Assembly (NCBI RefSeq): GCF_900009145.1 | Contig: NZ_LN889782.1 | Coordinates: forward strand, 922,236-957,307 | Direction of reading: 5' to 3' | Length of the DNA stretch: 35,072 nt | Source: Planktothrix tepida PCC 9214 | GTDB lineage: Bacteria > Cyanobacteriota > Cyanobacteriia > Cyanobacteriales > Microcoleaceae | Translations under genes and position numbers: made by a program | In this document: positions 19,484-31,325 of the stretch, piece after piece | Layout of the letters: each line of letters opens with the position of its first letter | Position numbering within the stretch: the first letter of the stretch is position 1 | The notes under the pieces: model-generated | Told to the model about the DNA's origin: nothing | Seen by the model: only the letters and a program-made list of their open reading frames with translations | Databases searched by the model: none

Positions 19484-19601
19484 AGCTTTATTAATTTTTC
19501 AACCTATTTTAATAGGTTTGAGCTTTAATTCAAGGCTCTATTTTGGCTTGATAAATCAATCATCCTAGATAGTGTGAACACTGGGATGGAGTACCCTACA
19601 A

Positions 19602-20336
19602 TTAACGAGTGTAACGACCATTATTGGGATAGGGTTGGGGATAGGTTTGATTGTTACGATTATAACGATCATAGCGATCGCTGCCATTATAAGTTCCTGA
19701 ATTATACCGACCATTATTATAATTTCCGTTGTTGTCTCCCCGTTTCCAAGCTTCATATTCTTGATCTAAACGTTGATCTAACTGAGTGTGAGAATCTCGA
19801 ATCATTTGGGCTTTTTGGGCTGAGGTTAAATTGTTATATTGAGGTTTTCTCACCTCTTGTCGCATTTGCTGTTCTAACTCCGCATGACGGCGTTGACGAT
19901 ATTGATCAAATGATTGTTGGTTATAGCGATCGTTACGATTATTGTTATTATTGCGATTATTGTTATTATAACGACCATTATTATAACGACCATTGTTATT
20001 ATTACGGCCATTATTAGATTGCCGTTGTTTCCAGGTTTCATATTCCCGATCTAAACTTTGATCGAGGGCATTATGAGCATCCCGAATCATTTGAGCTTTT
20101 TGGGCTGAAGTTAAATTGTTATATTGAGGTTTTTTTACCTCTTCCCGCATTTGCTGTTCTAACTGTGCATGACGCTGTTGACGATATTGATCAAAATTAT
20201 TTTGAGCTAGAATTAAATCTTGAGAGGACTGTCTTGAAGAAGTTGTGTTAATGGGGTTGTTAGGCATCACAGCATAAGCTGGAAGCATAGAACTGGCTGC
20301 TAATACCAATGTCGCTAAGGTTAATGTCGGTTTCAT
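19602..20336 (-). CDS. Secreted Asn/Arg/Tyr-rich protein with duplicated helical module
   Basis: A 244-residue exported protein of unknown function. From the ATG at 20336 it has a Sec signal peptide (MKPTLTLATLVLAASSMLPA, ending AYA before VMPNN). It then carries two copies of a 58-residue helical module, at about 48-105 and 143-200. Both contain FDQYRQ.RHA.LEQQM, KPQYNNLTSAQKAQMIRD and an LDQ.LD.EYE.WK ending. Between and after them are low-complexity linkers of Asn, Gly, Arg and Tyr (NNGRYNNGRYNNNNRNNNNN). The module looks like a paired amphipathic helix, perhaps binding a surface or nucleic acid through the basic linkers. The frame could also start at TTG 20348, but the ATG gives a better signal peptide. 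Confidence 0.75.
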   Translation of the reverse strand: MKPTLTLATLVLAASSMLPAYAVMPNNPINTTSSRQSSQDLILAQNNFDQYRQQRHAQLEQQMREEVKKPQYNNLTSAQKAQMIRDAHNALDQSLDREYETWKQRQSNNGRNNNNGRYNNGRYNNNNRNNNNNRNDRYNQQSFDQYRQRRHAELEQQMRQEVRKPQYNNLTSAQKAQMIRDSHTQLDQRLDQEYEAWKRGDNNGNYNNGRYNSGTYNGSDRYDRYNRNNQTYPQPYPNNGRYTR

Positions 20337-20606
20337 AGGTTTGCTCAACTTGAGAAAATGGTGGATTCTTTTCCTGATTTTAAACTAAAACTTTCTGGGG
20401 GCGTTTACATCATCCTGAGAGAAGATTTTAACAGTTGTGATCAGAATTCCGAGGCTATCTGGGGAAAAGGCAAGTCAGCAATTTTCCTAACTCCTGACTT
20501 ACTTTAATAGTCGATGGACATCGCAAAAGGTTCCCTAACCAGCGAGAACCCAAAAAACCCAGTTTCTATTGATATTTAGTGATTAGTGAAAGCATTATAG
20601 AGTGAA

Positions 20607-22781
20607 TCAACTATCCACTTCTTGACTGATAACTGATAACTGATGACTGATAACTGATTTCAGTTGGACAGCACAGGCTTTTAATTCTGGTTGGCGAGAG
20701 TCGGGACAGGCGTGAGGGTGGGTTAACGTGTTGGCTTCTGCGTCCGATGCCCATAATGTCCCCCAGTGCATCGGGACAAATACAGTTCCAGGGGCGATAA
20801 AAGCGGTTACTTTAGCCGGAAATTGACAACTTCCCCGCCGAGAACGCACTTCAACAATATCACCATTTTCAATCCCTAAATTCCCTGCATCTTTGGGATG
20901 AATCTCAATAAAGGGGTCGGGGTGCATTTGTTGGGTTTTGTTGGTTCTTCCGGTGCGGGTGAGGGTGTGCCAATGACCATACAGACGACCCGTTGTTAAC
21001 ACATAGGGATAATTCGGATCACTGGGCTCAGCCAACCCTTTAGAATGATACCCGCCAAAAATTGCCCGACGGTCGGGGGTCGCAAAATGATTATCAGTGT
21101 ATAAGCGTTGGCGACCGGGCTCCGTACTTCCTGCGGGACAAGGCCATTGGGTCGGCCCTTGATGTTGCAAACGGTCATGGCTTAACCCCGACATATCACA
21201 GGGACGACCTGACGTGAGTTGCACAAATTCAGCATAGACATCCGCCGAGGTTTGAAAGGCAAATTGTTCTTTAAACCCTAAGCGTCGTCCGACTTCGGCA
21301 AAAATCTCCCAGTCATGTCGAGCTTCTCCCAGAGGTTGATCAAACCCTGGACAGTAGGTAACACGCCGTTCTGAGTTGGTCATCACTCCCGTTTTTTCGC
21401 TCCATTGGGTGGCGGGGAGGAGGACATGGGCATAGGCTGAGGTTTCGGTGGGATAGTAGGCTTCTTGATAGACAGTAAAGGGAGATTTTAACAAGGCGGC
21501 TTTGGTACGTTCGAGATCGGGTAGACTAACAGCCGGATTTGTGGCGGCGATCCAGAGAAACTGCACTTCATCTTGTTCTAAACCGAGAATCATATCCCAA
21601 ACGGTGCGTCCGGGGGTGGGAGAAATGCGACCTTCAGGAATTCCCCAAAACTGTTCAACTTCAGCCCGGTGTTGGGGGTTGTTGACAAAGCGATAACCGG
21701 GTAATAGATGGGCAAGTCCTCCGGCTTCTCGTCCTCCCATGGCGTTGGGTTGTCCAGTGAGGGAAAAGGGGCCACAACCTGCTTTACCAATTTGACCTGT
21801 CATTAAGTGTAGATTAATCAGCGATCGCACTTTTGCAGTACCTTCGGAAGACTGATTTAATCCCATTGACCATAACGATAAAATCCGTTTCGATTGTTGC
21901 CAATAACGGGCGGCTGTTTCTAATGCTTCAATTGTAATTCCACACCGTTTAGCTACAATTTCGGGGGTATAGGATTGTAAAAGTTGAGCATATTGTTGAA
22001 AGTTGCGAGTACATTCATCAATAAAAACTGCATCAATATCCCCCCATCTTAATAATAAATAACCAATGCCATTAAATAAATCAATATCCGTTCCGGGGCG
22101 AATGGGTAAATGTAGGTCGGCGGCTTCGGCAGTTGGGGTATATCGAGGGTCAACAACTATTAATTTAACGTCAGGATTTTTTTTATGATATTTAGCGAAA
22201 CGATTAAAAACAATGGGATGACATTCTGCGGTATTACTACCGACAATAAACGCACAATCGGTTAATTCTAAATCTTCATAACAACAAGGGGGGCCATCGG
22301 AACCTAAGCTTTGAACATAACCTGATACAGCAGAAGACATACATAAACGAGAATTTGCATCAAAATTATTGGTTCCTAAACACCCTTTCATCAGTTTTTG
22401 GGCAATATAATAATCTTCGGTAACGAACTGACCGGAACCGTACATAGATAACGCATCGGAACCATAATCACGTTGAACCGTTTGGATACGTTCTACCATC
22501 AAATTTAAGGCTTCATCCCAACTCACTTGTCGGAAGGGTTGATCTAAGGTTTCTCGGATCATTGGGTGTAAAAGGCGATCACGACGAATGGATTCTGTGA
22601 CGGTAGCTCCTTTAACACAGACCATGCCTTGACTAGAGGGATGTTGGCGATCGCCTCGAACTTTCCAAATCGGGTTTCCCTGTTCGTCCCGTTTAATCTC
22701 TTGATCAGTTGTTGCTGTAGAGACAATTTCTAAACCACAACCCACACCACAAAATGGACAAAGTGTTTGAATTAATTTCAT
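20607..22781 (-). CDS. narB: NarB, ferredoxin-dependent assimilatory nitrate reductase
   Basis: NarB reduces nitrate to nitrite in the cytoplasm with electrons from reduced ferredoxin, using a [4Fe-4S] cluster and bis-MGD molybdenum. The 724 residues show the cluster ligands Cys8, Cys11, Cys15 (CPFCGVGC) and Cys55 (GMVCVKG), and the molybdenum ligand Cys147 in NSRLCMSS. Pterin-binding segments follow ([51 protein letters not shown]), as does the C-terminal domain with [19 protein letters not shown]. It lies 223 bases downstream of nrtD as the last gene of the nitrate operon. The final residues ([17 protein letters not shown]) do not belong to the enzyme: they are translated from a heptamer tandem repeat that has entered the 3' end. 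Confidence 0.97.
20625..20659. repeat. Heptamer tandem repeat (ACTGATA x 5) inside the 3' end of narB
   Basis: Five tandem units, ACTGATA, ACTGATA, ACTGATG, ACTGATA, ACTGATT. This is a typical STRR sequence. It lies within the coding region and encodes the tail [11 protein letters not shown]. Confidence 0.93.
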
Positions 22782-23004: not shown

Positions 23005-24999
23005 CTATTGAGCCGATTTGAGATCTAAAGTTCCTACGGGAGTAAAGGTTGCCTCAAATTGGGTATAAGGAGTTTGGGTAACATCCGACTTGACTAACTT
23101 CGGCAAAGGGGTATTATTAACATTTTGAGTCGCATCGGGAGATTTAGCTTCGTAACTTAAAATATCCCCGGTTCGACTTACCTTAATCAAATAAACGGAT
23201 ACAGCCGTTACCGGAGTGTTTGTCCAAGCTTGATTAATGGTGGCAAAAACCTCTTGATTTAACTGTTCAAGATCCTCAGCACTAGGGGTTGCTGTTGTGC
23301 TACTAATGGATGTTGCTGATTCAGTCGGCGAGGTGGTAGCCACCGGAGAAGAAGAAACCGAGGGTGAGGCCGTTGTGGTAGGTGCGGTTGCCGTTGCAGA
23401 TGGGGAAGTTGTAGTCGCCGCTAAACTTTCAGGCGTTGGGGATGCAGTCGCAACGGGAGAGGGTGAAATCGTTGTTGGGGATGGAGATAGGGTTGTTGTC
23501 GGGGCAATAGCCGTTGTTGAACTGGGAGAGGGAAGGGTTGTTGTCGATCCAAGGCTATTGGGACTCGGTGATGTCGTTGCTACTGCGTTCGGTGAAGGAG
23601 TTGCGGTTGACTCCAAGGAGGGAGAAGGACTGACCGAGGGAACTGTAGTAGGGGATAAGGTAGCAGTCGGAGTGGGGGATAGGGTGGGAGAAGCCGTGGT
23701 GATGGGAGTAACCGTTTCAGCAACGGGGGTGGTTTCTGTTTCCATCGTCGTAGCAGATGGTTCTGGGGTTTCTGCCTCTTTATTTGCGGTAGTGGGCGTG
23801 GAATTAAAAACTAATGAGCCCACTAAGGTTGCGATAATCACTCCCCAGAGTGAAAATAATATCGCTGTTTTTGTTGCAGGCGACATTTCTTCAGGTGGAG
23901 TCGCCGGATCAACCCCATGAGTAAACTCAGGTTCGGGGGTTTTAGCATAGGGATTTTTATCTGGAATTACCGGATCAACCCCACGAGTGAGTTCAGGTTC
24001 AGGCGTTTTAGCATAGGGATTTTCATCCGGGTTAGGTCTATTGGGTTGCATATTCAGCACCTCTGTTGCTATATGACTAGAACTGGGTGCTATTGTAGTG
24101 CTTTGTGCTAATCCCGTGTCAGGGGTTTTATCTTCTGTTGTGATCTCTTCGGTAGTCTCTTCATCTTCTTCGTGATGAGCAAAACGTCGGAAGAGAAAAT
24201 CGAGAGCATAGTTCCGCAATTCATAATATCGCGGATCTTCCATAATTTTCGCCCGATTTCTAGGACGGGAGAAGGGAATGTCTAAAATTTCCCCAATTTG
24301 GGCGGCTGGGCCATTGGTCATCATCACCAAACGGTCGGCTAAAAACAAGGCTTCATCAATATCATGGGTAATCATTAAAACTGTAATCCGATGATCTTGC
24401 CAAATATTGAGCAGTTCTTCCTGTAATTCTTCGCGGGTAATGGGGTCTAAGGCTCCAAAGGGTTCGTCTAAAATTAAAATTTGGGGACGAGTGGCTAAGG
24501 CGCGAGCAATAGAAACCCGTTGTTTCATACCTCCTGAGAGTTGAGAGGGTTTTTTATTCGCCGCTTCGGATAACCCGACTAACTCTAAATTTTCTTTGAC
24601 AATTTCCAGTTGTTCAGCCGTAGATTTGTCAGGATATACTGACTCAACCCCTAAGTGAATATTTTCTTTGGCGGTCAACCAAGGTAACAGAGAATAATTT
24701 TGAAACACCACCATCCGTTCTGGCCCAGGTTCGGTGATCAACTGTCCTTGAACGGATATTACCCCGGTTGTCGGTTGATTAAACCCAGCCACCATATTTA
24801 ATAGCGTGGATTTTCCACACCCAGAGTGACCGATAATGCAAATAAATTCGCCTTCTTTGACCCGAAGATTAACATCTTCAAGCACAATATATTTCCCTTT
24901 AGGGGTGTCATAAACTTTAGACACTTGATCAATCACCAAAAAGTCATCGGATTTTAAGGAAGAAGTGGGTTTAGAGGAAATATTATCTAAAATTTGCAT
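23005..24999 (-). CDS. nrtD: NrtD nitrate ABC ATPase fused to a membrane-anchored Pro/Ser/Thr-rich protein
   Basis: Residues 1-275 are a complete NrtD, the second ATPase of the nitrate/nitrite importer: Walker [10 protein letters not shown] (57-65), Q-loop [11 protein letters not shown], signature LSGGMKQ (154-160), Walker B ILILDEP (174-180), H-loop His212, and the nitrate-family ending PRYYELRNYALDFLFRRF. Normal NrtD stops about here. This protein continues without a stop to residue 664: acidic linker (276-326), two tandem 22-residue repeats beginning NPYAKTPEPE (327-348, 349-370), one transmembrane helix (377-398, TAILFSLWGVIIATLVGSLV), a Pro/Ser/Thr stalk (399-572) and a C-terminal domain (573-664) with LIKVSRTGDILSYEAKSPDA and FEATFTPVGTL. 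That domain vaguely resembles TonB C-terminal folds. Topology implies the stalk is periplasmic. The gene lies 33 bases after nrtC. Confidence 0.92.
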   Translation of the reverse strand: MQILDNISSKPTSSLKSDDFLVIDQVSKVYDTPKGKYIVLEDVNLRVKEGEFICIIGHSGCGKSTLLNMVAGFNQPTTGVISVQGQLITEPGPERMVVFQNYSLLPWLTAKENIHLGVESVYPDKSTAEQLEIVKENLELVGLSEAANKKPSQLSGGMKQRVSIARALATRPQILILDEPFGALDPITREELQEELLNIWQDHRITVLMITHDIDEALFLADRLVMMTNGPAAQIGEILDIPFSRPRNRAKIMEDPRYYELRNYALDFLFRRFAHHEEDEETTEEITTEDKTPDTGLAQSTTIAPSSSHIATEVLNMQPNRPNPDENPYAKTPEPELTRGVDPVIPDKNPYAKTPEPEFTHGVDPATPPEEMSPATKTAILFSLWGVIIATLVGSLVFNSTPTTANKEAETPEPSATTMETETTPVAETVTPITTASPTLSPTPTATLSPTTVPSVSPSPSLESTATPSPNAVATTSPSPNSLGSTTTLPSPSSTTAIAPTTTLSPSPTTISPSPVATASPTPESLAATTTSPSATATAPTTTASPSVSSSPVATTSPTESATSISSTTATPSAEDLEQLNQEVFATINQAWTNTPVTAVSVYLIKVSRTGDILSYEAKSPDATQNVNNTPLPKLVKSDVTQTPYTQFEATFTPVGTLDLKSAQ
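24058..24064 (-). promoter_or_regulatory. Possible internal ribosome binding site within nrtD
   Basis: On the minus strand AGAGGTG lies six bases before an in-frame ATG at 24051 (residue 317 of the fusion, MQPNRPNPDE). Translation from here would give a 348-residue membrane protein without the ATPase, so the extension may once have been, or still be, a separate product. The sequence match alone is modest evidence. Confidence 0.4.
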
Positions 25000-25032: not shown

Positions 25033-27036
25033 TTAAGCAGCGATCGGATCAAGGATAATTTCTTCAATCCGAATTTCCTGTTTAATCTTCAGATTTTTGA
25101 GATATTTAATCGGTTCATGGGGATTAAATATTGTGCCATCAAACAGTTTTATACTTTGGCGATCGCGTCCCATATCGGATAATCCTAATTCTCTGGCAGC
25201 TTGACCATAAACATCCGTTCTTAACACTCGTTCTATAATGGAAACCCAGTTTCTCGGAAAGGGAATAATTCCCCAACGTGCCATTTCTGCCATGATCCAA
25301 AGGAATTCTGTGGCATCGGGGCAATTGGTTTTATCCACAAAAAATTGATTGTAATTGACTAATAATTCGGGTGGTTTACCATCCCCCCGTTGAACCGGAT
25401 CAATAAATCCTAATCGGGTATATTCCGGTGCAGAACCAACATATTCATCGCGGCATAAAATCTCTAAAATTTCTTCTCGATTTCGGCGATCATCGCAATA
25501 ATCGCAAGCTTCAATTAAGGCTTTCACCAAGGCAATATGGGTCTTTGGATAACGATTTGCCCAGTCTTCTGTTGCCCCTAAAACTTTCTCTGTATGTCCA
25601 TTGGGGAAAATATCAAAACTATTGGCAATAATAAAGCCTAACCCTTCATGAACAGAGCGAGCATTCCACGGCCCCCCGACACAATAACCATCAATATTCC
25701 CCGCTTTTAAATTCGCTTGCATTTGGGGCGGTGGAATCACGGTTAAATTAACATCTTGATCCGGGTTAATTCCTCCTGCGGCTAACCAATACCTGAGCAT
25801 TAAATTGTGCATGGAACTCGGATGAACCATACCTAATGTATGCACTTTGTCAAGTTTTTTTTCGATATAATTTTTAAAGTCTTCTAAAGTTATAACTCCG
25901 TTTTCATACAACTGTTTATTCAAAGTAATGGCATTTCCATTGCGAGATAAAGTTAAGGCGGTTACCATTGGAATTGGGGGATTTTTACCGAAGCCTAATG
26001 TCATGGCTAAGGGCATTCCTGCCACCATTTGGGCTGCATCTAAACGCCCTTCAACTACGCCTTGACCTAACAGTTTCCAACTGGTTTCTCGGCTTAAGTT
26101 GACTTCCGTTAAGCCATATTCCTCAAAAATTCCTTTTTCTTTGGCAATAATCAAAGGAGCGCAGTCGGTTAAGGGGATAAAGCCGATATCTAAATTGACT
26201 TTTTCTAAACCATTTTTGGCAATAACGGTAGGAGCTTTTTTGAGTGTTGATTTTTTGGCTTTTTTCTGTTGGTTTAGGAAATAAACAATTTCATTTCGCA
26301 GGGCATAATAGCTGGGATGATTTACCACTTCCATGCGTTGACGAGGACGGGGAATATTCACATCTAAAATTTGCCCAATATGCGCTTCTGGGCCGTTGGT
26401 TAACATGACAATGCGATCCGATAAAAGCAAGGCTTCATCGACATCGTGCGTTACCATCACAGCACTGACTTGGTTCGCTTCGCAGATTTTCATTAACTGC
26501 TCTTGTAACCCGCCTCTGGTTAACGCATCTAACGCCCCAAAGGGTTCATCTAAAAGTAATAATTGGGGGCGAATAGCAAGGGCACGGGCGATGGCAACTC
26601 GTTGTTTCATCCCCCCTGAAATTTCTCCGGGTAATTTATCAGCAGCTTGTCTTAAACCGACTAATTTAATGTGTCGTTCAATAATCTCTTTTCGTTCAGT
26701 TTTAGACCGTTTGCGATAAACTTCATCAACGGCTAAGGCAATATTCTCTCGTACCGTTAACCAAGGTAATAAGGAATAATTTTGAAACACTACCATGCGA
26801 TCTGGCCCAGGTTCACGGACTTCTCGACCTTCAACAATAATTCCACCTTGACTGGCTTGATCTAACCCGGCAATAATATTTAAAAGGGTCGATTTTCCAC
26901 AGCCCGAATGTCCGATTAATGAAATAAATTCACCTTTTTTAATTTTGAGTTCAATATTTTTCAGTGCAATATATTGTTCTCCATTGGGGAGATTAAAAAC
27001 GCGATGAACGTGATCAACTTCGACGAATACAGACAT
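25033..27036 (-). CDS. nrtC: NrtC, nitrate ABC transporter ATPase with NrtA-like regulatory domain
   Basis: A 667-residue protein of normal NrtC length and two-domain layout. Residues 1-260 are the ATPase: Walker [10 protein letters not shown] (42-50), signature ISGGMKQ (139-145), Walker B LLLLDEP (159-165) and [10 protein letters not shown]. Residues from about 280 to the end are related to the substrate-binding protein Nrt[20 protein letters not shown] resembles NrtA's GFIALTDSAPLIIALEKG, and [20 protein letters not shown] and [11 protein letters not shown] recur too. In Synechococcus the C-terminal domain mediates inhibition of nitrate uptake by ammonium. NrtC pairs with NrtD and the NrtB permease. 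Gaps are 42 bases to nrtB and 33 bases to nrtD, and the latter contains a short GTTGACA duplication. Confidence 0.97.
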
Positions 27037-27078: not shown

Positions 27079-27918
27079 TTATTTTTGCTCGGCGGGAACC
27101 ACTTTTGAAGCAATGAAACCAATGGTGCGGTCGAGGATTAAACCCACAACACCAACATAGATTAAAGCAACGATAATGGCACTAATTCGAGAACTATTAT
27201 AGGCATCCCAAATAAAGAACCCAATACCAACTCCACCGACTAACATTTCCGCCGCAATAATGGCTAACCAAGATAAACCGATGCCAATTCTTAACCCGGT
27301 AAAGATATAAGGAACGGCGGAAGGAAATAATACTTTGAAGAAGTATTTTTGTCGGGGTAAACGTAACACTCTAGCTACGTTTTTATAGTCTTGGGGAATT
27401 TGTTGAACGCCGACGGTGGTGTTAATAATAATTGGCCAAATTGCTGTAATAAAGATGACGAAAATCGCGGAAGGATTGGATTGTTGAAAGGCAGCTAAGG
27501 CGATGGGTAACCAAGCCAGGGGAGGAATTGTTCTGAGGATTTGAAATAAGGGATCTAAGGCATCATACATAAAGGTATTTGTCCCGATTAAAATCCCTAA
27601 TGCAATTCCAACAATTGCCGATAAGGTAAATCCAATGGCAACTCGTTGTAAACTGGCTAGAACTTGCCAAAATAACCCTTTATCTGTACCTCCATTATCA
27701 AAAAATGGGTTAATAATTAATTGCCAAGATTCTTTAACGGTGGTAATGGGAGAAGGTAAGTTAGGGTTTTCTCCTGAACATAACAGTTGCCAAAGGGCGA
27801 GGAAAATAACTACTGCAATTAACGGGCGGATGATTTTATTACGGTTTTTATTAAACCAATCAAAGACAAAATTGAGAGGATTATTACTGCTAGAACGGAC
27901 TTTAATGCTAGTGGTCAT
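27079..27918 (-). CDS. nrtB: NrtB, nitrate/nitrite ABC transporter permease
   Basis: A 279-residue inner-membrane permease of the nitrate/sulfonate/taurine type, forming the channel of NrtABCD as a homodimer. Hydrophobic helices include PLIAVVIFLALWQLLC near the N-terminus, VAIGFTLSAIVGIALGILIG, IFVIFITAIWPIIINTTVGV and SAIIVALIYVGVVGLILDRT. The EAA-type loop that contacts the ATPases is visible at NVARVLRLPRQKYFFKVLFP followed by SAVPYIFTGLRIGIG. It is of normal length. A repeat-like hairpin element separates it from nrtA (144-base gap), whereas the gap to nrtC is only 42 bases. Confidence 0.96.
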   Translation of the reverse strand: MTTSIKVRSSSNNPLNFVFDWFNKNRNKIIRPLIAVVIFLALWQLLCSGENPNLPSPITTVKESWQLIINPFFDNGGTDKGLFWQVLASLQRVAIGFTLSAIVGIALGILIGTNTFMYDALDPLFQILRTIPPLAWLPIALAAFQQSNPSAIFVIFITAIWPIIINTTVGVQQIPQDYKNVARVLRLPRQKYFFKVLFPSAVPYIFTGLRIGIGLSWLAIIAAEMLVGGVGIGFFIWDAYNSSRISAIIVALIYVGVVGLILDRTIGFIASKVVPAEQK

Positions 27919-28062: not shown

Positions 28063-29400
28063 TTAGATTTTTTTGATGGCTAAACCATTAAGATAAGCTT
28101 GAGGATCATCGGGGTTAAATTGGACACCATCAAAGAAGGTTTCAACACCACGAGAAGGGGTTGCTGGAATTTGTTCTGCGGGAACATTTAACGATTTTGC
28201 GGCTTCCTTCCAGATATCTTCACGGTTGACTTTATCAACGGTGGCTTTAATATCTAAATCGGGCGGTAAATATCCCCAACGAATATCTTCCGTTAAGAAC
28301 CAAGTATCATGGCTTTTATAGGGGTAAGAAGCGTTATCTCTCCAGAATTTCATCGCAATGGGGCTGGCGGTTACAACCCGACCATCACCGAAGTCAATAT
28401 TTCCCTTAGAGCGCTCAATAATATCTTTTACAGGTACTTTAAACCACTTATCTTGGGAAACAATTTGACACATCTCTTCAATATTTTCGGGTTTATCACA
28501 CCATTGTTGCGCTTCTAAGACCGCCATTGTTAATGCTTTTGCGGCTTTGGGGTTTTTATCTACCCAGTCGGCGCGCATACTAAAGGCTTTTTCCGGGTGA
28601 TCTTTCCACAATTCTCCAGTAATTAATGCCGTATATCCTGCTTTCTGATTCACTAATTGAGCATTCCAAGGTTCACCCACACAGAAGCCTTCCATATTGC
28701 CAACTTTCATATTAGCAACCATTTGGGGAGGCGGAACTGGAATAATCGAAATATCACTATCAGGAATTGTCCCCCCTGAAGCTAACCAGTAGCGCATCCA
28801 TAAATCGTGGGTTCCTCCGGGGAATGTAATGGCGGCTTTGACTTCTTTTCCTGAATTCTTTGCCCCTAATACAAGGTCTTTGAATCTAGCACTATCATTA
28901 ATAGTTATTTTAGCATCCAGGTAATCTTTCCCTAATGAAATTGCCTGACCGTTGGTATTTAATCGGGCTAAAAGATACATGGGAACGGGTTGTTTGGTAA
29001 TCGTTCCTAATGTCATTAAATAAGGCATAGGGGATAAAATATGAGCCCCATCAATTCCTCCACCAGCAGACCCTAATTCTAAGTTATCACGGGTGACAGG
29101 CCAAGAGGCTTGTTTAACCACCTTAACATCCGTCATTCCATATTTAGCGAATAAGCCTTTTTCTAAGGCAATAATTAAGGGGGCAGAGTCGGTTAAAGCA
29201 ATAAATCCTAATGTTGCCGTTGGTGTTTCTGGTGCATCAGCCGGATTAATATTCGCTGCGGGAACTGCCGTTGCAGCCGGGGAAGGATTAGAGGCAGTTG
29301 TTGAAGAATTAGTACCGGAAGTACAACCATGTACAAAGATGGTTCCCGCCGCAGTAACACCAGCCGTCAAAAGGAATTTACGTCGTGAAAGCTTACTCAT
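28063..29400 (-). CDS. nrtA: NrtA, nitrate/nitrite-binding lipoprotein
   Basis: A 445-residue solute-binding protein that captures nitrate and nitrite with high affinity at the outer face of the plasma membrane and delivers them to NrtB. The N-terminus has a twin-arginine-type signal, SRRKFLLTAGVTAAGT, combined with a lipobox VHGC (Cys26), so the folded protein is probably exported by Tat and lipid anchored. A Ser/Thr/Ala/Pro-rich tether (30-60) follows, then the conserved domain from LGFIALTDSAPLIIALEKGL to PSRGVETFFDGVQFNPDDPQ. Ligand-site segments include ITFPGGTHDLWMRYWLASGG and MEGFCVGEPWNAQLV. It lies 65 bases downstream of nirA. Confidence 0.97.
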   Translation of the reverse strand: MSKLSRRKFLLTAGVTAAGTIFVHGCTSGTNSSTTASNPSPAATAVPAANINPADAPETPTATLGFIALTDSAPLIIALEKGLFAKYGMTDVKVVKQASWPVTRDNLELGSAGGGIDGAHILSPMPYLMTLGTITKQPVPMYLLARLNTNGQAISLGKDYLDAKITINDSARFKDLVLGAKNSGKEVKAAITFPGGTHDLWMRYWLASGGTIPDSDISIIPVPPPQMVANMKVGNMEGFCVGEPWNAQLVNQKAGYTALITGELWKDHPEKAFSMRADWVDKNPKAAKALTMAVLEAQQWCDKPENIEEMCQIVSQDKWFKVPVKDIIERSKGNIDFGDGRVVTASPIAMKFWRDNASYPYKSHDTWFLTEDIRWGYLPPDLDIKATVDKVNREDIWKEAAKSLNVPAEQIPATPSRGVETFFDGVQFNPDDPQAYLNGLAIKKI

Positions 29401-29465: not shown

Positions 29466-31325
29466 TTAAGCATCAATAACGACTGTATTTATCGCCTGGG
29501 CACTACAGGTTAAAATCATACCCGGTTCTAGGTCTTTCGCAGCATCAGGATTGTTATTATATTGGATCTGCCCTTCAATTAATTTTTGTTGGCAAGTTCC
29601 ACAATTTCCTGAACGGCAGCTACTGGGAATTGGAATTCCTTCCCGTTCTGCTACGTCGAGAATGAGTTCATTTTCTGTACAGGTAATGGTTTTACCCGAT
29701 TTAGCAAAAACAATTGTGGCTGTTTTAACGGGTATTTCTGGGGTATTGTTTTGGGAATTAATCTCAGAGTCTGAACTTGTTAAATCCACTCCATCTTTGA
29801 GTCTAGCGCCAAATTGCTCTACAAGAATTTGTCGCAAAATGGGTTTTAAATCGTCACAAGGAATGGATTTTTGAACACATTCACCGAGTTGAGCATCTTT
29901 CCCAACTTTTCCGCCCATATAGAGGTTAACGCCTTCAACAACTTTACCATCTTTGCGGGCTTTTGTTCCCATTAATCCAATATCAGCGACTTGGGGTTGT
30001 CCGCAGGAATTAGGGCAGCCTGTCCAATGAATTCGCACGGGTTTTTCGACAGTTAATTCTGCTTCTAATTCTTTTACTAATGCCGTAGCCCGATTTTTAG
30101 TTTCAACTAAAGCAAAGTTACAGAATTGTGCGCCTGTACAGGACACTAACCCTCGGCTTAAACCCGATGGACTAATGGAGAATTTCTCTAAAAGGGGTTC
30201 AGTGAGAAAAGCTTCTAAACGGCTATCAGAAATATGGGGAATAATGACATTTTGCTCAACGGTTAAACGAATTTCACCAGCACCATAGACTTCAGAAATT
30301 CGGGCTAATTCTAACATATCGTTGGCATACAACCGCCCAACAGGAACGTTTAATCCCACATAGTTGAATCCTGGTTGCTTTTGTTTATAAACCCCAATAT
30401 GATCCCGTTTTTCCCAGAGAATTTCGTCTTTTTCCGCTTCGGGTTCTAAAGAATAACCCATTTGTTTTTCCACTTCCGAACGGAACTTGTCAATCCCCCA
30501 TTCATCAATTAACCACATCAACCGAGCTTTTTGACGACTTCCTCTTAACCCATTGTCTCGATAAACTTCTAAAATACCTCGACACAAACCCACTACTTCA
30601 TGGGGTTGTACCCAGGCATTTAAGGGAATAGCAGCCGCACAACGGGTGGCAGAAAAGAAGCCTCCCACTAAGACATTGAACCCAAAAATATCCTGTTTAA
30701 ATGCGGGAACAAAGGCAATATCATTGATTTCAGCATGAACGGAATTATCCCGACATCCGGCGATCGCAATATTGAATTTTCGCGGTAAATTAGTAAATTC
30801 AATATTGCCTTTTCCGTGATTGGTAATTAAGTCTTGAACTTGTTGGACTAACTCGCGGGTATCATACAGTTCATCTGCATCTAACCCCGCAACGGGTGAA
30901 CCTGTGATGTTTCGCACGTTATCCATTCCTGACTGAATGCTCGTGAGTCCAACGGTTTCAAAGCGCCGGAAAATGTCAGGAATATCCTCAAGCCGAATTC
31001 CTCTTAACTGAAGGTTCTGTCTTGTGGTAATATCAGCATTACCGTCATCACCGTAGCGTTGCACGATTTCCCCCAAAACCCGCATCTGCTCACTGGTGAT
31101 GACCCCATTCGGTAAACGCATTCGCAGCATGAATTTACCCGGAGTCACCGGACGAAAGAAAACCCCTAACCATTTCAGGCGGTAGTCTCGGTCTGTTTCG
31201 TCCATTGCTTCCCAACCCAGTCGGGTTAAGGTTTCGATTTCGTCTTTGACGGCTAAACCGTCTTTTTCTGCTTTGAGTTTCTCAAATTTGTTGGTAGCCA
31301 CCTTTTGTGGGAGTGTGCTGGTCAT
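29466..31325 (-). CDS. nirA: NirA, ferredoxin-nitrite reductase with C-terminal [2Fe-2S] ferredoxin domain
   Basis: NirA reduces nitrite to ammonium with six electrons from ferredoxin, using siroheme and a [4Fe-4S] cluster. Residues 1-510 are a complete nitrite reductase; the shared cluster ligands are Cys396 and Cys402 (SCTGAQFC) and Cys437 and Cys441 (TGCPNSCG). Residues 531-619 add a plant-type ferredoxin domain with CRSGNCGTC (Cys570, 575, 578) and Cys607 in ILTCSAQ, giving the complete four-cysteine set. Most cyanobacterial NirA proteins end near residue 510, but such an extension is known, for example in Plectonema boryanum. The tethered ferredoxin may feed electrons directly to the reductase. 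It is the first gene of the operon, with a leader of roughly 200 bases from the NtcA promoter. Confidence 0.97.
   Translation of the reverse strand: MTSTLPQKVATNKFEKLKAEKDGLAVKDEIETLTRLGWEAMDETDRDYRLKWLGVFFRPVTPGKFMLRMRLPNGVITSEQMRVLGEIVQRYGDDGNADITTRQNLQLRGIRLEDIPDIFRRFETVGLTSIQSGMDNVRNITGSPVAGLDADELYDTRELVQQVQDLITNHGKGNIEFTNLPRKFNIAIAGCRDNSVHAEINDIAFVPAFKQDIFGFNVLVGGFFSATRCAAAIPLNAWVQPHEVVGLCRGILEVYRDNGLRGSRQKARLMWLIDEWGIDKFRSEVEKQMGYSLEPEAEKDEILWEKRDHIGVYKQKQPGFNYVGLNVPVGRLYANDMLELARISEVYGAGEIRLTVEQNVIIPHISDSRLEAFLTEPLLEKFSISPSGLSRGLVSCTGAQFCNFALVETKNRATALVKELEAELTVEKPVRIHWTGCPNSCGQPQVADIGLMGTKARKDGKVVEGVNLYMGGKVGKDAQLGECVQKSIPCDDLKPILRQILVEQFGARLKDGVDLTSSDSEINSQNNTPEIPVKTATIVFAKSGKTITCTENELILDVAEREGIPIPSSCRSGNCGTCQQKLIEGQIQYNNNPDAAKDLEPGMILTCSAQAINTVVIDA

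Follow-up and report, generated by a model that had tools for sequence, protein, structure and literature searches.

NrtD is an ATPase of the cyanobacterial nitrate importer NrtABCD; in the solved structures (8wm7, 8w9m), it ends at residue 277, and its gene is located between nrtC and narB. NrtC, also a nitrate ATPase, carries a large C-terminal addition, an NMT1_2 domain. Proteins of the TolA/TonB type (E. coli TolA domain III, TonB-CTD) combine one membrane helix, a long periplasmic spacer, and a small C-terminal domain; the partners of this domain are outer-membrane proteins and Pal/TolB, and the helices contain a histidine serving ExbBD/TolQR. The TonB-like proteins of Anabaena PCC 7120 consist of a cytosolic stub, a helix, a linker, and a C-terminal domain, and TonB2 was proposed to be TolA-like; as described there, these proteins are not fused to transporters (PMC8597729).

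The window, i.e., the whole analyzed stretch of 35,072 nucleotides from Planktothrix tepida PCC 9214, contains a nitrate locus with the gene order nirA-nrtA-nrtB-nrtC-nrtD-narB, every gene being encoded on the minus strand. The neighbors of nrtD are the following:

29466–31325, minus strand: nirA with a C-terminal 2Fe-2S domain (PRK09566, 919 bits; fdx_plant at 542–617, below cut-off)
28063–29400, minus strand: nrtA (by place and weak matches to substrate-binding proteins)
27079–27918, minus strand: nrtB (TIGR01183, 361.1 bits)
25033–27036, minus strand: nrtC (TIGR01184 plus NMT1_2)
20607–22781, minus strand: narB (molybdopterin oxidoreductase domains)

The ferredoxin-like C-terminal domain of NirA scored 55.4 bits with fdx_plant, below the cut-off of 81. 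The nirA frame of genome G004 was of similar length (637), and the frames of G001 and G005 had 529 residues and lacked the 2Fe-2S domain.

The nrtD frame occupies its usual place in nirA-nrtABCD-narB and continues far beyond residue 277. It is open without a break over 664 codons of the minus strand, the plus-strand translation of the same interval being full of stops, and comprises the following parts:

23005–24999, minus strand: nrtD with an arm of membrane helix, stalk, and TolA/TonB-like domain, 664 aa (single open frame, TIGR01184, 8wm7_D, relatives)
24169–24999, minus strand: NrtD ATPase, residues 1–277 (TIGR01184, 400.9 bits with a cut-off of 291.8; aligned to 8wm7_D)
24052–24168, minus strand: linker, residues 278–316, its distal part probably derived from the leader of the downstream gene (alignments)
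23005–24051, minus strand: nested ORF from Met317, 348 aa, with cytoplasmic stub, membrane helix, stalk, and C-terminal domain (start kept in 10/10 genomes; stand-alone homologues L047, L048, L052, L058)
23893–24024, minus strand: two 22-residue repeats, residues 326–369 (doubled in the strain of the window only)
23800–23877, minus strand: predicted single membrane helix, residues 375–400 (hydrophobicity)
23275–23799, minus strand: Pro/Ser/Thr stalk, residues 401–575 (composition; dN/dS 0.22)
23008–23274, minus strand: C-terminal TolA/TonB-like domain, residues 576–664, 89 residues (AlphaFold2 pLDDT 88.6; Foldseek first match TolA 2x9a_B; dN/dS 0.10)

Residues 1–277 aligned end to end with chain D of 8wm7, the solved NrtD of 277 residues, and the ORF exceeded the curated cut-off of TIGR01184 (nitrate ABC ATPase). 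The complete N-terminal NrtD ATPase and the single uninterrupted frame proposed in the initial annotation were thus recovered, and the same parts were open in 9/10 genomes of the genus. NrtD is expected to end near residue 277 and to be peripheral and cytoplasmic, but the ORF of the window adds 387 residues and a predicted membrane helix. The addition is unrelated to the NMT1_2 domain of NrtC. Residues 277–664 contained one hydrophobic peak at 375–400 (Kyte–Doolittle up to 2.35; ATKTAILFSLWGVIIATLVGSLVFNS, histidine absent), and the predicted topology places the C-terminus outside the cytoplasm. The stalk of 175 residues is composed of T (29%), S (21%), P (18%), and A (13%). The succession of membrane helix, low-complexity stalk, and C-terminal domain was also part of the initial description and agrees with these predictions. 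The 22-residue repeats of that description were found in the strain of the window but were not conserved: the other 9 genomes had a single unit.

The fusion was present in 9/10 Planktothrix genomes, that of the window included, with 78–95% identity to the protein of the window; it is real and not a product of chance. Mean dN/dS over 36 pairs among the nine fused genomes was 0.06 for the ATPase, 0.10 for the C-terminal domain, 0.12 for the helix, 0.22 for the stalk, and 0.27 for the stub. The linker between FAHHE and AQSTT varied in length (16, 20, 23, or 25 residues) and was in frame in 9/9. A second NrtD-like ATPase without the extension, 71% identical and possibly CmpD, was encoded elsewhere in the genome of the window (L016).

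The C-terminal domain looks TolA/TonB-like in its modeled structure, and we do not call it a member of that family. An AlphaFold2 model from nine sequences (pLDDT 88.6, pTM 0.81) had the order H-E-E-H-H-E-E. Among 368 Foldseek matches, the first was TolA (2x9a_B; probability 0.80, TM 0.47, E 0.18), the second was FusB, which we take to be TonB-like, and ranks 5, 6, 11, 15, 16, and 19 were TonB, TolA, or HasB domains; none had an E value up to 0.001. No Pfam model matched the domain of the window, and TonB_2 (PF13103) gave no match over its cut-off anywhere in the same genome. In two sets of relatives, it matched 10/18 (E up to 10) and 10/12 (E up to 1); of the ten relatives checked, six gave a match with an E value not above 0.1, but a single one, an NrtD fusion (L118), exceeded the cut-off of 22, with 23.2 bits. 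Against E. coli TolA alone, a profile comparison gave 6.7% over a short alignment in another register and so does not support kinship to this protein; the controls Pal and TolR scored below it. A search of the PDB by sequence returned nothing matching the domain. The arm shares with TolA and TonB, whose domains took Foldseek ranks 1, 5, 6, 11, 15, and 16, a predicted single helix, a periplasmic spacer, and a small C-terminal domain; it differs in the absence of a significant structural or sequence match, in being joined to an ABC ATPase, and in a helix devoid of histidine (residues 375–400). The order of parts is also that of the Anabaena TonB-like proteins as presented in PMC8597729, a likeness of layout. 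Of the initial proposal of a tethered ATPase with an extracytoplasmic sensor or wall-binding domain, the tether and the extracytoplasmic location agree with the predicted topology, but "sensor or wall-binding" is too vague for a domain that resembles the TolA/TonB C-terminal fold.

Inside the ORF, Met317 is encoded by an ATG at 24049–24051 and is preceded by the following elements:

24060–24064, minus strand: AGAGG, Shine–Dalgarno-like, 8 nt before the nested ATG (10/10 genomes)
24052–24135, minus strand: synonymously conserved block, codons 289–316, directly 5' of the nested start (lowest pS)
24092–24097, minus strand: TACAAT, invariant in 10 genomes, a possible −10 element (alignment)

Both the ATG and AGAGG were kept in 10/10 Planktothrix genomes; the Shine–Dalgarno-like motif and ATG at 24051 had been pointed out initially. 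Across 642 overlapping 18-codon windows along the ORF, pS had its minimum of 0.094 at codons 297–314, just before Met317 (median 0.42; rank 1/642). Among codons with an invariant amino acid in all nine genomes, 12/14 were identical in sequence within 289–316 and 133/363 elsewhere (Fisher p 3e-4). No such trough was found between the ATPase and the helix in 22 Microcoleus-type NrtD fusions (lowest 0.383, median 0.35; 23 were aligned, one being dropped for a run of unknown bases); therefore, it is not general to fused NrtD. A consensus promoter search of the linker revealed no sigma-70-type site at TACAAT, so an own promoter of the nested gene is a candidate at most. At the level of sequence, these data establish a nested, strongly conserved putative translation start, the apparent leader DNA of which is now translated as linker. 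We infer that two products may be made, the 664-residue NrtD-arm and a free arm of 348 residues. The Planktothrix gene illustrates that a fusion can swallow the leader and start of a neighbor and leave both intact. A single ORF may then give rise to a fused product as well as a free one, and annotation easily overlooks nested products of this sort.

Stand-alone proteins consisting of stub, helix, stalk, and domain were encoded in Lyngbya aestuarii BL J (G011, L047/L138), G014 (L048), G018 and G019 (L052, L126), and G010 (L058); within about 1.5 kb, the relatives in Lyngbya, G014, G018, and G010 were not part of nitrate loci. Alignment of the 70 bases preceding Met317 to the G018/G019 leader scored 48, against a maximum of 34 in 2000 shuffles. 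When 409 leaders were scored, only this leader stood out besides the copy of genome G009 described below, and the best unrelated one scored 30. The Lyngbya leader was at background with the linker of the window (score 24, 61/2000 shuffles) and matched the copy of Planktothrix G003 (score 30, 1/2000 shuffles); the leaders of G014 (20; 84/2000) and G010 (16; 897/2000) did not match the linker of the window. Because of the alignment with a stand-alone leader, we conclude that linker codons from about 297 to 316 most probably represent the former leader DNA of a gene into which nrtD ran. The comparisons likewise mark the arm as foreign in origin and, by all appearances, once a separate gene.

In one Planktothrix genome, the MAG KTt_bin-1839 (G009; contig CAITND010000223.1, 99% complete), the arm was found without the ATPase. 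The genome gave no match to narB; NrtD or NrtC of the window's type was absent at E 1e-60; nrtA and nrtB had no match in 20 kb around the site; and the nirA search gave only a 28% partial match, similar matches being obtained in the two further genomes examined. The arm (L034:10375-12784) is encoded by its own ORF with AGAGG and ATG, and the DNA upstream begins with the NrtD linker. Its flanks are a codA-like gene, which is located before nirA in relatives, and the gene that follows narB. The codA-like gene starts exactly at the junction by the arm; the ORF following narB, which occupies 19574–20348 of the window on the minus strand, is Asn/Arg/Tyr-rich and repetitive and has a long plus-strand mirror ORF. 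The G009 branch carried 12.0 synonymous and 7.0 nonsynonymous changes over 313 comparable codons (sister G004, 13.8 and 10.2); thus, the arm appears not to be visibly decayed, with the reservations that the loss could be recent and that the contig is from a MAG. An ancestral unfused state is the less likely reading of G009, because the C-domain trees place its arm among those of Planktothrix and the upstream DNA starts with the NrtD linker. The read-through fusion with a downstream gene suggested in the initial annotation is well supported by the leader homology, the pS trough before Met317, and the downstream piece alone in G009; its further suggestion that this piece may still be made alone is consistent with the conserved ATG and AGAGG and with the state of G009.

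The best explanation, whose chances of being correct we put at about even, is that the importer ATPase is tethered to an envelope arm that would span the periplasm and would also be made alone from the nested start. The ORF would represent the NrtD ATPase fused with a once stand-alone envelope-arm gene. The 664-residue protein would sit in the NrtBCD importer and reach through the peptidoglycan; its end domain might, with less certainty, use an outer-membrane protein or the wall as its docking site, and docking would hold the nitrate importer at the site of entry. The free 348-residue arm could play the same role for other partners or compete for the dock. If each residue of a helix contributes 0.15 nm, as assumed for the Anabaena TonB proteins, the 175-residue stalk would measure about 26 nm, which is close to the distance of 32 nm between the membranes quoted in PMC8597729; the discussion of that article also mentions the binding of TolA to porins in E. 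coli. Tethering of NrtD could also alter PII control, because PII binds NrtC and NrtD in Synechocystis (PMC6603209). The route by which nitrate crosses the outer membrane and wall of cyanobacteria on its way to the importer is seldom considered.

A serious but unlikely alternative is that the arm is the only working part, i.e., a stand-alone envelope gene trapped behind nrtD and expressed from its own start, the fused form then being a by-product that is tolerated but plays no part in nitrate uptake. Such a gene would explain the conserved nested start and leader, the retention of the arm in G009 after the loss of the rest, and the location of the stand-alone relatives outside nitrate loci. 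Nevertheless, the linker is kept in frame in 9/9 genomes despite its changes in length, and the NrtD-arm fusions of the Microcoleus type have no trough in the linker, so there the fused protein must presumably be the product.

In the family, a readable NrtD-arm frame was found in 36/61 genomes: 9 of Planktothrix, 3 of genus g7, and 24 of genus g9, which we take to be Microcoleus-type. Fusions outside the family were L118, L189, L197, L198, L199, L200, and L202. Both stand-alone homologues and other NrtD fusions, a search for which had been recommended initially, thus occur in cyanobacterial genomes. Forcing all NrtD arms together cost 68.9 log units in the C-domain tree (p-AU 4e-67) and 33.4 log units in a C-domain tree with more families (p-AU 5e-4); a single origin for all NrtD arms was rejected. 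Planktothrix arms grouped with stand-alone and FeoA-linked proteins (99/97), and other lineages appear to have acquired their NrtD arm independently of Planktothrix. In the ATPase tree, for which 22 of 30 chosen rows were usable and which was midpoint-rooted without an outgroup, Planktothrix, g9, and g7 fell on the same side of one branch (100/98). With the ATPases of the three genera so placed, the trees are compatible with two histories: a second acquisition of such an arm by NrtD, or the replacement of an older arm in Planktothrix.

It is improbable that the helix is a plain anchor keeping the ATPase at the membrane, with the stalk and end domain as passengers. Two NrtDs ending, by eye, in a hydrophobic tail without a further domain (L116, L077) would fit an anchor; however, the C-terminal domain is under tighter constraint (dN/dS 0.10) than the stalk (0.22) and stub (0.27), and the same domain type has apparently been put on NrtD more than once. 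Still less can be said for a true TonB, energized by ExbBD-type motors and opening an outer-membrane receptor for nitrate, which we regard as very improbable: the order of helix, spacer, and C-terminal domain is that of TonB, but the helix ATKTAILFSLWGVIIATLVGSLVFNS lacks the histidine characteristic of TonB/TolA, and NrtD already has its own energy source. A sequencing or assembly artefact has a negligible chance and is ruled out, because 9/10 genomes have an open frame across the same parts, including residues 276–316, for which a stop or frameshift had initially been considered, and independent genomes such as Planktothrix rubescens PCC 7821 and P. paucivesiculata PCC 9631 carry the fusion.

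Loci of a second class of nitrate transporter, NrtP, also contain the arm, as a separate gene. Eight small arm proteins of 185–268 residues (L172–L175, L179, L183, L185, L186) adjoin nrtP in 8/8 such loci of the family; on the other side were nirA in five, a divergent codA-like gene in two, and a contig end in one. In an order-wide profile search, 106/156 genomes matched at 1e-12, and, of the genomes from other families, the 20 with the highest scores had their loci read (G079, examined before, was left out). They comprised 17 nitrate loci and 3 DUF4335 proteins; since the loci were chosen by a profile built from nitrate-locus copies, 17/20 shows an arrangement and is not an unbiased rate. The 17 nitrate loci included 10 with nirA-arm-nrtP, 6 NrtD-arm fusions, and one (L193) with NrtD and the domain in different frames. 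In four of the ten nirA-arm-nrtP loci (L190, L191, L192, L194), two different arm genes were found in a row. The literature searched, largely open-access, yielded no description of the NrtD extension or of the nirA-arm-nrtP order.

NrtP is an MFS transporter unrelated to NrtABCD, and the presence of the arm by both supports a nitrate function. The separately acquired arms on NrtDs of other lineages and the arm genes beside nrtP are supporting evidence for such a function in the arm of the window as well. The repeated independent pairing of two unrelated nitrate transporter classes with TolA/TonB-like arms offers a testable link between uptake and envelope and suggests that cyanobacteria may tether their nitrate transporters to the cell envelope.

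The arm is not nitrate-specific, because copies of the domain are also found in association with DUF4335 and WD40 proteins and with iron genes. Of 9 small Microcoleus-type domain proteins, 6 had a ferritin-like gene as a neighbor, joined in 5 cases by a gene for an FTR1-type permease, and 3 had neither within the stretch read; small arm proteins with iron-gene neighbors of these two kinds are, e.g., L169, L178, L180, L184, and L188. FeoA-arm fusions also exist (L051, FeoA 58.1 bits). We tentatively propose, as a possibility somewhat short of probable, that a cyanobacterial family of importer-dedicated TolA/TonB-like arms, fused to NrtABCD and FeoA, adjacent to NrtP, and present in FTR1/ferritin loci, couples inner-membrane uptake to outer-membrane entry, and that Planktothrix replaced its nitrate arm with one of foreign origin that brought its own leader, resulting in what is still a gene inside a gene.

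L051, L053, and L063 all consist of FeoA, a helix, a stalk, and the same C-terminal domain type; in L063 and L064, a gene that looks cobA-like by eye follows. WD40 proteins ending in the domain adjoin a ferric-reductase-like membrane gene in 3/4 loci (L003, L130, L182). In the genome of the window, DUF3038, a DUF4335 protein with the domain, and an OmpA-type protein are encoded in a row (L002), an arrangement with a Tol-Pal-like look.
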